Shown here in pieces: positions 28,844 through 53,548 of a DNA stretch of 64,000 bases. The DNA lies in the NCBI GenBank assembly GCA_017441925.1, contig JAFRUE010000007.1, positions 310,001 to 374,000 of the forward strand. The letters are read 5' to 3'. The stretch is from Bacillota bacterium (GTDB taxonomy: Bacteria > Bacillota > Clostridia > Lachnospirales > Bianqueaceae). Every line of letters begins with the position of its first letter. Positions within the stretch are counted from its first letter, which is position 1. The translations under genes were made by a program, and so were the position numbers. The notes beneath the pieces are model-generated. The model was given only the letters and a program-made list of their open reading frames with translations. It was not told the origin of the DNA and searched no databases.

Positions 28844-29701
28844 TTAAGGACAGACGGCGGTCACGACGCGGTCAAGGCCGGATAGATCTTTGATGACCTG
28901 TATGCCGGTGAAACCTTTACTCTGCAGAATCGTACTGACGGATCTTCCCTGCTCTGCGCCGATCTCAAGATAGAGCGGAGATCCGGATGTAAGATGGTCA
29001 GGACACTCTTCGGCAAGGCGTCGGTAGAAATACAATCCGTCGCTGCCTCCATCTAGCGCGATACGAGGTTCGTGATCCCGTACCTGGGGCTCCAGTCCGG
29101 CAATTTCACCGCTTGGGATATAAGGCGGATTACAGACGATAAAATCATAGACTTTCCCGGCAGGAACAGCTTCAAAGAAGTCTCCCTGCAGCCAGACCGG
29201 CTTTGTGCCCGGGAGGAGCAAGTCGCCGTTCCTTCTGGCAATACTGAGCGCGCGCGGCGACAGATCCGCCGCATCCATCATCAGACGGCAGCGGGCCAGA
29301 GCCATCAGTGTTACAGCGATGCAGCCGCTGCCCGTACACAGGTCCAGACCTTGGACTTCTCCTGAAGCCGGCAGTCTGTGCAGGATCGTATCGACCAGGA
29401 TCTCTGTATCCATGCGGGGCACCAGAACGTCTTCGCTCACGATGAAAGACAGTCCCATGAAATCCTGACGGGACAGGATCTGCTGGACCGAACGGCCGGA
29501 TTCCCGCTGCCAGAGATATGCCTTAAAACGCAAGGTGCCTTCCTGCGGCGCCGGTTCATGTTCTGTCAGCAGATAGCGGGCAGGGTCGATCCGAAAAGCG
29601 TTGTCAAACAGTACACGTGCATCCGCCTCGGGCTCTTCAGCTCCGGATTTGCGGAGACGGTCTATCCCCTCATATAAAACGTCCCTGTAGGAACGGCTCA
29701 T
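28844..29701 (-). CDS. prmC: Release factor glutamine methyltransferase PrmC
   Basis: PrmC N5-methylates the Gln of the GGQ motif in release factors. The 285-residue frame starts at the ATG at 29701, overlapping the DUF1385 stop by four bases (ATGA) behind GGAGGAG. It has an N-terminal helical substrate-binding domain (1-85), SAM motif LDLCTGSGCIAV (119-130) and catalytic NPPY (191-194). LVPRMDTE (93-100) has Met where LIPRPDTE is usual. The frame is open upstream, but that part lies in the neighbouring gene. Confidence 0.95.
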   Translation of the reverse strand: MSRSYRDVLYEGIDRLRKSGAEEPEADARVLFDNAFRIDPARYLLTEHEPAPQEGTLRFKAYLWQRESGRSVQQILSRQDFMGLSFIVSEDVLVPRMDTEILVDTILHRLPASGEVQGLDLCTGSGCIAVTLMALARCRLMMDAADLSPRALSIARRNGDLLLPGTKPVWLQGDFFEAVPAGKVYDFIVCNPPYIPSGEIAGLEPQVRDHEPRIALDGGSDGLYFYRRLAEECPDHLTSGSPLYLEIGAEQGRSVSTILQSKGFTGIQVIKDLSGLDRVVTAVCP

Positions 29702-30714
29702 TTCTCCTCCGCTCCTTCGCTGCAATTCAGAGTGATGCTTTCCTGCACTCTGTCCCAGTCCGGACGGAGCTCCTCCGGCAGACGGCCTTCCGCGTCCAGA
29801 ACAGCAAGTGTCGAAGCGATGGCCGTCTCGATCTCTGCTTCTTCGGGCTCTCTGGTCGTCAGCTTCTGAAGCTGCAGACCCGGCCATACAAGAGCGTTAA
29901 GGATCGGCGTATGGTATTTATTGCTTGCCATCAGGATCTCATAGGAGATTCCGGAGACAAGCGGCAGCAGGAGGATGCGGAAAAGCACTTTAAGCAATGG
30001 ATTGCTGACGTAGATCACAGCAAAGAGAAGAATGCTGACCGTCATGACCAGGAAGATAAAGCTTGTGCCGCATCTACGGTTCAGACGTGTATAGGGTTTG
30101 ACATTCTCCGGGGTGAGAGACTTGCCGTCTTCCAGACAGTTGATGGTCTTGTGCTCTGCTCCGTGATACTCAAAGAGTCGGCGGATATCCTTCATCCTGG
30201 AAATGGCAAGGATATATCCGATAAAGATCGAGACGCGCACAATGCCTTCGAGCAGTGAAAGAAGCAGGCGGCTGTGTATCCAGCGGGAGAGCCAGCCGGA
30301 GACAAGAGTCGGAATGAGAATGAAGAGTCCAAGCGCCAGGACGATTCCGAGCAGCATCGAGATGATAGTAACGATGGAGTCACCATAACGGCTCCACAGA
30401 CGTCCGGCGGCGGATGTGGGAACTTTCTTCTTGTCGGCCGGTTCTTCCTCGAAGAAGGACGCGGAGAAATTAAGTGTACGGATCCCGATGACAAATGACT
30501 CAAAGAAACGGACCGCGCCGCGCAGGATCGGAAGATTCAGGATCTTATATTTATCGGTAACAGACGGACTGTCGAAAAGCTGTGTCAGGATGGTCCCGTC
30601 TGTACGGCGGACTGAAACCGCATAACGGTTCTTGCCTTTCATCATGACGCCTTCCATGACGGCTTGCCCGCCGACTCGGAGCAGACGGCATTGATCTCTA
30701 TATGAATCTGGCAT
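29698..30714 (-). CDS. DUF1385 (YqhQ-like) membrane protein
   Basis: The 338 residues have the family N-terminus (VGGQAVMEGVMMKG), the central RRLFEYHGAEHKTINCLE and several hydrophobic helices (about 100-135, 140-175, 215-245). Family function is unknown; it sits beside prmC and prfA in many Clostridia, as here. The start at 30714 is set by AAGGAG six bases upstream. A longer in-frame reading would run into the tandem repeat array and is rejected. No good promoter is visible in the 25 bases before the array, so the transcript may start within or beyond it. Confidence 0.88.
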   Translation of the reverse strand: MPDSYRDQCRLLRVGGQAVMEGVMMKGKNRYAVSVRRTDGTILTQLFDSPSVTDKYKILNLPILRGAVRFFESFVIGIRTLNFSASFFEEEPADKKKVPTSAAGRLWSRYGDSIVTIISMLLGIVLALGLFILIPTLVSGWLSRWIHSRLLLSLLEGIVRVSIFIGYILAISRMKDIRRLFEYHGAEHKTINCLEDGKSLTPENVKPYTRLNRRCGTSFIFLVMTVSILLFAVIYVSNPLLKVLFRILLLPLVSGISYEILMASNKYHTPILNALVWPGLQLQKLTTREPEEAEIETAIASTLAVLDAEGRLPEELRPDWDRVQESITLNCSEGAEEK

Positions 30715-30739: not shown

Positions 30740-30914
30740 ATGACACACGCAGCACGCATGCTGCGCATGCTATGTGCTGCTGAAGTCCTGTGCCGAAGGT
30801 TGAAATGACACACGCAGCACGCATGCTGCGCATGCTATGTGCTGCTGAAGTCCTGTGCCGAAGGTTGAAATGACACACGCAGCACGCATGCTGCGCATGC
30901 TATGTGCTGCTGAA
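30740..30914. repeat. 65-base tandem repeat, 2 full copies plus a 45-base third
   Basis: Units start at 30740, 30805 and 30870. The first two are identical over 65 bases as far as I can read; the third matches for 45 bases (to 30914) and then diverges into the hairpin element. Each unit opens with ATGACACA and contains a hairpin (GCAGCAC, GCATGC, loop TGC, GCATGC, TAT bulge, GTGCTGC). A 24-base joining segment follows units one and two. There are no variable spacers, so this is not a CRISPR array. It lies directly upstream of the DUF1385 gene. Confidence 0.95.
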
Positions 30915-31051
30915 ACACTCATAACTCCCGCGGTTTTGTGCTGTTCAGCTCAAAACCGCTTCGTTATTCGTGTTTGGCGGCGCAAGAGCACTCCAATGTC
31001 CTTGCATGCAAGCATGCACGTCCATTGTCGCGCTTTTGCGCCTTGTGTCAT
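30870..31051. other. Compact four-way-junction-like inverted-repeat element, identity unknown
   Basis: Terminal arms ATGACACA (30870-30877) and TGTGTCAT (31044-31051) pair over 8 bp. Between them lie three hairpins separated by linkers of 1, 2, 3 and 1 bases. Hairpin 30879-30910 has 7+6 bp and a 3-base loop. Hairpin 30913-30975 has helices of 6, 5, 9 and 3 bp with loop GTTC. Hairpin 30979-31042 has GGCGCAAGAGC paired with GCTTTTGCGCC (one G-T), then CAATG/CATTG, then TGCATGC/GCATGCA. No reading frame fits it. It could be a structured RNA, a leader of the DUF1385 operon, or a small palindromic mobile element. Confidence 0.8.
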
Positions 31052-31087
31052 AAAAAGAACCGGCGGAGGTGGTATCTCTGCCGGTTC
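31052..31087 (-). terminator. Rho-independent terminator of rpmE
   Basis: Minus strand: GAACCGGC (31087-31080) pairs with GCCGGTTC (31064-31057), followed by TTTTT. The T run touches the terminal arm of the neighbouring hairpin element. Confidence 0.85.
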
Positions 31088-31114: not shown

Positions 31115-31318
31115 TCACTTGTTGATGCCGTATTTACGGTTGAACTTCTCAATACGTCCGCGTGCCGCGACAGCTTTCTGCGTTCCGGTATAGAACGGAT
31201 GGCACTTGGAGCATACTTCTACACTGATCTCTTTGGCTGTGGAACCGACGGTAAAGGTGTTGCCGCAGTTGCAGCGTACGGTTGCCTGGTAGAATTTGGG
31301 CTGAATGCTCTCCTGCAT
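31115..31318 (-). CDS. rpmE: 50S ribosomal protein L31
   Basis: The 67 residues begin MQESIQPKFYQATVRC and have the zinc-type Cys set (CNCG and CSKCHPFYTG), so this is the Cys-containing L31 form that also stores zinc. The start at 31318 fits the family; the frame is open for 19 codons upstream, but those residues are not L31. GAGG lies about 11 bases upstream. It has its own promoter and terminator and is the first gene of the conserved rpmE - DUF1385 - prmC - prfA order. Confidence 0.97.
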   Translation of the reverse strand: MQESIQPKFYQATVRCNCGNTFTVGSTAKEISVEVCSKCHPFYTGTQKAVAARGRIEKFNRKYGINK

Positions 31319-53171: not shown

Positions 53172-53206
53172 TCCTTGCTCCTGTCCTGATTCTGCAATCA
53201 ATTGTA

Positions 53207-53548
53207 CTGTGAGCGAACCGTAAGCCGAGTTCTGTCGTGGACGGCCATCTATCTGGACCGTATGTTGCCATACGGCTCTAGCGACCTACCCGAAGGTCGG
53301 CGGGCAGCCATCATCCCTTCTGTTGGTCTTGCTCCGGATGGGGTTTACAATGCGTCCCCTGTCACCAGCGGACCGGTGAGCTCTTACCTCGCCCTTTCAC
53401 CCTTACCGGGAGGCAGAGCCTGCCCGGCGGTTTGCTTTCTGTTGCACTTTCCTTAGGATCGCTCCCACTGGACGTTATCCAGCATCCTGCCCTGTGGAGC
53501 TCGGACTTTCCTCACGCTTGCGCGCGCGGCCGTCTGGTTCCCTCACAG
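53207..53548 (-). ncRNA. rnpB: RNase P RNA (type A)
   Basis: This is the catalytic RNA that matures tRNA 5' ends. The closing P1 helix pairs CTGTGAGGGAACC (53548-53536) with GGTTCGCTCACAG (53219-53207). Universally conserved blocks are present on the minus strand: GAGGAAAGTCCGAGCTCC, AACAGAAAGCAAACCGCC, GGTAAGGGTGAAAGGG and ACAGAACTCGGCTTA. The architecture follows the ancestral (A) type rather than the Bacillus B type. The predicted transcription start coincides with the 5' end. Confidence 0.96.

Follow-up and report, generated by a model that had tools for sequence, protein, structure and literature searches.

The rpmE-DUF1385 gap and its element

The window, which is the whole 64,000-nucleotide stretch of DNA that was analyzed, carries rpmE, DUF1385, prmC and prfA on its minus strand, together with an element that has the rpmE terminator on one side and the ribosome-binding site of DUF1385 on the other (Table 1). 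MFE folding of the 182 bases of this element (30870-31051) gave an identical four-way junction on both strands, with linkers of 1, 2, 3 and 1 bases between the closing arms and the three hairpins. An earlier note on this DNA had described 8-bp arms, three hairpins and linkers whose coordinates agree base for base with the MFE fold. It had also proposed that the folding energy be compared with that of shuffled sequence, and the energy proved to be far below chance on both strands: -88.5 kcal/mol for the plus strand (z -7.75) and -97.1 kcal/mol for the minus strand (z -9.51), and none of 200 shuffles reached these values on either strand. The direction hinted at in the same note was the plus strand, which is incorrect because the single G-T pair on which it relied was misleading; the minus strand folds better and is also the strand of the Rfam match. 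A reading as plus-strand RNA is ruled out by the strand energies and the Rfam orientation.

Table 1. Features of the rpmE-DUF1385 region, in positions of the window
Feature	Coordinates	Strand	Basis
rpmE (ribosomal protein L31), upstream neighbor of the element	31115..31318	-	PF01197
Intrinsic terminator of rpmE with an 8-bp stem (GAACCGGC/GCCGGTTC) and a T5 tract, directly adjoining the element	31052..31087	-	sequence; same terminator in empty relatives
Four-way junction, full-length RF01699 (Clostridiales-1) match (30871-31050)	30870..31051	-	cmscan 76.6 bits, model 1-166; fold z -9.51
Closing helix P1 5' arm, ATGACACA on the minus strand; outer end of left terminal repeat	31044..31051	-	fold; aligns with left ends of relatives
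Hairpin 1 (family 5' hairpin), apical loop in ATGCTTGCAT	30979..31042	-	fold and Rfam alignment
Hairpin 2	30913..30975	-	fold and Rfam alignment
Hairpin 3, C(GCA)G triloop and 3-base bulge	30879..30910	-	fold and triloop count
Closing helix P1 3' arm, TGTGTCAT on the minus strand	30870..30877	-	fold
First extra 65-bp tandem unit (hairpin 3, P1 3' arm and 21-nt filler)	30805..30869	-	TRF period 65
Second extra 65-bp tandem unit, closest to DUF1385	30740..30804	-	TRF; matches to empty relatives resume at window 30714
DUF1385 gene, downstream neighbor, followed by prmC and prfA	29698..30714	-	PF07136 and neighbors

The covariance model of the Rfam family RF01699 (Clostridiales-1) matches 30871-31050 of the minus strand, untruncated over model positions 1-166, with 76.6 bits against a gathering score of 48. 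In the minus-strand MFE structure and the Rfam alignment, the closing helix and the three hairpins follow the family order, and both the sequence/structure profile and the four-way layout are common to family and element over the full length. The element is by covariance search a member of RF01699, so that the earlier statement that no RNA class has this layout was in error, and a new RNA class is ruled out by the match. Clostridiales-1 was described by Weinberg et al. (2010) as a probable RNA that is not cis-regulatory, found in Clostridiales and the human gut (PMC2864571). Rfam types the family as an sRNA gene, whereas in our analysis it behaves as part of a mobile repeat. Elsewhere in the window, a bacterial RNase P class A RNA was recognized at 53206-53545 on the minus strand (303.5 bits).

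The window copy differs from the RF01699 model in an extra 65-bp tandem of hairpin 3. TRF reports a perfect repeat of 2.7 copies (100% match, 30740-30914) that extends the element towards DUF1385, each unit being composed of hairpin 3, the 3' arm of P1 and a 21-nt filler. The extent of 30870-31051 given in the earlier note was correct for the fold but missed this tandem beside the junction. An extra hairpin 3 lies at most 160 nt downstream in 23 of 147 RF01699 copies, and tandem full or 5'-shortened copies are present in many genomes. The additional 3' hairpins of the window copy may have been made by local re-duplication. The possibility that the 21-nt filler is a degenerate right terminal repeat was set aside, the resemblance being by eye only.

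The same gap is uninterrupted in relatives. In G007, which belongs to the same genus, and in the MAG L034, the terminator directly adjoins the DUF1385 ribosome-binding site (CGGTTCTTTTCATAGAAAGGAGC) without an element; the L31 protein of L034 is 96% identical to that of the window. G007 and L034 share the same junction sequence and are probably one species. In the more distant relatives G004 and G005, the gap is shorter and likewise lacks the element. As the gap is occupied here and uninterrupted in these relatives, the element is a discrete insertion, most simply a gain at this site; the empty sites could be losses, but gain is the simpler explanation. A promoter scan of the window region found nothing resembling a promoter between the terminator of rpmE and the element, and the sole minus-strand promoter-like match near the 5' side of the element (31051-31024) falls inside it. 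Transcription of the window copy would therefore be by read-through, which would place a hairpin cluster of very high stability in the intergenic RNA between rpmE and DUF1385; an effect of the element on expression, if any, would be a by-product or a later co-option.

Dispersal, transposon ends and target duplications

RF01699 is present in 10 of the 19 genomes of the window's family, at 1-18 copies per positive genome, and in 102 of 392 genomes sampled from the order, where seven candidates were scored per genome. Complete counts in selected single genomes of the order reach 96, 73, 49, 43, 42 and 33 copies. Many dispersed, near-identical copies are thus seen in relatives (up to 96), while the window's genome has just two diverged copies. 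The second of these (C13:140630-140810, 110 bits) is also trailed by a second hairpin 3; it occupies the gap that follows a Mur-ligase-type ORF, an unrelated gene identified by its sequence only. Copies in other places follow tRNA genes, terminators and many gene types. In the sister species G010, G011 and G009 (L017, L025 and L137), copies occupy one site between two tRNA genes; their closing helices are similar (TATAACC) and their hairpin stems almost unrelated, as if the stems were turning over very fast or had been exchanged. In G393 (C34:25245-25597), a Clostridiales-1 copy has the same orientation as a 6S RNA match and begins 3 nt past it. Plasmids can carry the repeat as well, as indicated by the single hit of a plasmid search, a diverged copy on a Butyrivibrio fibrisolvens plasmid (NZ_CP146964.1:63122-63294; 74.6% over 84% of the query; 3 places).

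The real ends of young copies reach beyond the 3' edge of the RF01699 model and consist of terminal inverted repeats of approximately 19 bp (TGATACCAGGGTCAAAAGG / CCTTTTGACCCCxACATCA), with the end motif TGATRCCAGGGTCAAAAGG. From end to end, the mobile unit in relatives reads TGAxxxxAGGGTCAAAAGG ... CCTTTTGACCCCxACATCA; it encodes no protein, and its target duplication is A/T-rich and 5-6 bp long. Genome G253 holds about 20 near-identical copies at unrelated sites, each followed by a 35-nt tail that terminates in an inverted copy of the left end, and in nearly all of them the 5 bases before the left end recur after the tail (TAATA, TAAAA, TAACA, TTTTA, TGTTA). The pattern of tail plus target duplication is also found in G227, in G340 and at many loci of other genera. 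In 66 of 153 copies, the left-edge 6-mer is found again no more than about 65 nt from the right edge; re-paired flanks give an expectation of 7.5, with a maximum of 17 over 500 shuffles. For the window's family taken by itself, exact 5-mer duplications are as frequent as chance predicts (5/56), which is consistent with older insertions; G003 shows one TATAG duplication and a few near-duplications. Because exact duplications are at chance there, mobility within this family rests on copy number, the empty site and the near-duplications of G003. The window copy has a fitting left terminal repeat and a degenerate or lost right end, with no clear target duplication at its edges.

The terminal repeat pattern gave 164 hits in G347, compared with 0 for the reversed control pattern. 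Both G347 and G340 contain versions cut down to the ends plus hairpin 1, about 65-130 bp in length and in several cases exactly 71 bp. Many of these reduced versions still carry target duplications, suggesting that the junction is not required for movement, although for some of them deletion after insertion is possible. G347 also possesses a second, shorter family of single-hairpin elements of about 71 bp (L363-L366, L350, L353 and L362), which share terminal inverted repeats and target duplications and are without the junction.

No autonomous partner with these ends was found inside the terminal repeat loci examined in G340, G393 and G347, and no transposase was recognized among the ORFs listed beside such loci in G340 and G393. 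A scan of viral contigs for the terminal repeats gave 0 hits. The junction-less loci of the three genomes, considered as a possible autonomous transposon, proved to be either isolated ends or versions shortened by deletion, most of them 65-130 bp long. Genes for Y1_Tnp are present in 16 of the 19 genomes of the window's family, and a mobilizer of the Y1/RAYT type was rejected, as the presence of Y1 does not track RF01699 copies (G007 has a copy without Y1; G001, G016 and G018 have Y1 without a copy). The window's genome itself encodes one Y1_Tnp (IS200-type) transposase ORF of 177 aa (G000:C10:7122-7478).

Pairing and the possible nature of RF01699

Two-sided changes were found in all 25 consensus pairs of 38 diverse copies. 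Counted as cells of the aligned pairs, RF01699 shows 234 two-sided versus 10 one-sided changes and 15 G-U versus 10 A-C; the corresponding counts for 6S RNA, taken as a control from the same genomes under the same treatment, are 102 versus 89 and 138 versus 10. In individual folds of 63 non-redundant copies, G-U accounts for 92 of 3781 pairs (2.4%) on the family strand and 92 (2.4%) on the complement, while 6S RNA of the same genomes has 15.4% and 9.2%, respectively, and shuffled elements have 13.8%. The triloops are C(GNA)G in 68 of 89 cases, versus 2 of 80 in shuffles; d(GCGNAGC) is an exceptionally stable DNA mini-hairpin. This strict pairing without a clear G-U excess, combined with the C(GNA)G triloops, suggests that either selection or hairpin repair maintains complementarity at the DNA level.

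A single pair of orthologs shows how the helices change. The C13 copy (L145 3630-3880) has an ortholog in G007 (C213, L014); between the two, the closing helix is changed on both sides, from TGAAACTA / TAGTTTC to TGATACCA / TGGTATCA, and hairpin 3 is also changed on both sides, in concert in both tandem copies, from GTTTCGAAGAAAC to GGTTCGCAGAACC. The helices are thus kept with compensation in these orthologs, rather than lost without it, an outcome that the earlier note had named as evidence against its structure. The two tandem copies have evolved jointly, a case of concerted evolution of hairpin modules, and this points to a process acting on DNA.

The family strand is the more stable one in 60 of 63 copies, a difference for which its loops account at least in part. 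Of the 18 copies of the window's family that lie between same-strand genes, 16 are co-directional with them, and all copies together give 49 versus 27, although these counts are inflated because some copies represent the same site in sister species. This strand bias in stability and direction could leave room for a role or constraint in RNA.

Taken together, we consider it very likely that the window element, diverged and expanded at its 3' end, is a copy of a non-autonomous, MITE-like repeat whose body is catalogued as Clostridiales-1, with its palindromes kept at the DNA level, and it is probably a mini-transposon rather than a gene-control leader. The palindromic mobile element that had been among the suggestions of the earlier note is well supported by the many copies, by the inverted repeats and target duplications in relatives and by the empty site. 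The window copy would have been moved in trans by a putative transposase, probably of the DDE type, and its hairpins may be kept as strict DNA palindromes through a folded single-stranded DNA or cruciform state. Whether RF01699 as a whole is not an RNA family, its covarying four-way junction being instead a DNA structure selected in, or repaired into, a transposable element, is in our judgment an evenly balanced question. If it is a DNA fold, covariation has here detected DNA and not RNA, and the marks of such a case are strict Watson-Crick pairing, no G-U excess and GNA triloops.

A true structured RNA, acting in trans or in cis, could also be carried and spread by a mobile element with its helices selected in RNA, and we regard this as rather unlikely but deserving of weight. 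The family was published as a probable RNA that is not cis-regulatory (PMC2864571), it covaries strongly, its own strand is the better one in 60/63 copies, and its co-directional bias in the window's family is 16 versus 2. The structured RNA suggested in the earlier note accordingly has the Rfam label in its favor and is possible on that ground, but the pairs evolve unlike those of the matched 6S RNA control, since G-U versus A-C counts of 15 versus 10 show no clear excess where 6S RNA has 138 versus 10. In addition, versions that retain the terminal repeats without the junction also show target duplications, the window element follows directly on the T tract of the rpmE terminator, its sole promoter-like match being internal, and tens of copies per genome would be unusual for an sRNA gene.

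The location of the element upstream of DUF1385, on the same strand and 155 nt before the start codon, would suit a riboswitch-like leader of the DUF1385-prmC-prfA operon, as the earlier note had also suggested. This reading is highly implausible, however, as the position is not conserved (the gap is without the element in G007, L034 and the more distant G004/G005) and other copies are found beside unrelated genes, the C13 copy after the Mur-ligase-type ORF and copies elsewhere after terminators, tRNA genes and genes of many types. A further possibility is an element of the REP/BIME type, mobilized in the form of folded single-stranded DNA by a Y1 (IS200/RAYT) transposase. This would account for the DNA-type hairpin loops, and Y1_Tnp occurs in 16/19 genomes of the family, including one gene in the window's genome; REP/BIME repeats with RAYT are, like RF01699, dispersed hairpin DNA repeats outside genes. 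We nevertheless think it improbable, because RF01699 differs from REP/BIME in having terminal inverted repeats and a target duplication, which point to double-strand transposition, and the presence of Y1 genes does not follow copy number.

Significance and known repeats

A literature search, in which few subscription journals were covered, found no description of Clostridiales-1 as a mobile repeat. Within the literature searched, three features of RF01699 appear to be new: its mobility, its true ends and its DNA-like pairing. If the mini-transposon reading is true, a curated RNA family would be reclassified as a mini-transposon spread across many gut and rumen Clostridia genera. Counting G-U versus A-C on both strands alongside a real RNA control may also serve as a simple test of whether other orphan "candidate structured RNA" families are RNAs or covarying DNA palindromes. 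Why transposons keep an elaborate junction where a 71-bp hairpin seems sufficient for movement would then become a testable question.

Several known repeats of other bacteria resemble the RF01699 element. The MITE-like bcr1 of the Bacillus cereus group is of similar size (~150-170 bp) and high copy number, with 11-130 copies per genome (PMC6542083), and it can be likened to the RF01699 repeat in its A/T-rich TTTAT motif tied to mobility, its conserved secondary structure and its frequent location within UTRs; unlike RF01699, bcr1 has been described as confined to the B. cereus group, and the two are compared by description only. BOX, RUP and SPRITE of Streptococcus pneumoniae are, as here, intergenic and highly base-paired repeats of the MITE type, and they are transcribed as operon extensions (PMC3049150); their hosts are different and their sequences unrelated as far as known, the comparison again being one of descriptions. 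The internal boxB module of BOX varies in number (PMC3049150), as does hairpin 3 here, but unlike in BOX the repeated module of the window element is the 3' hairpin plus the closing arm.
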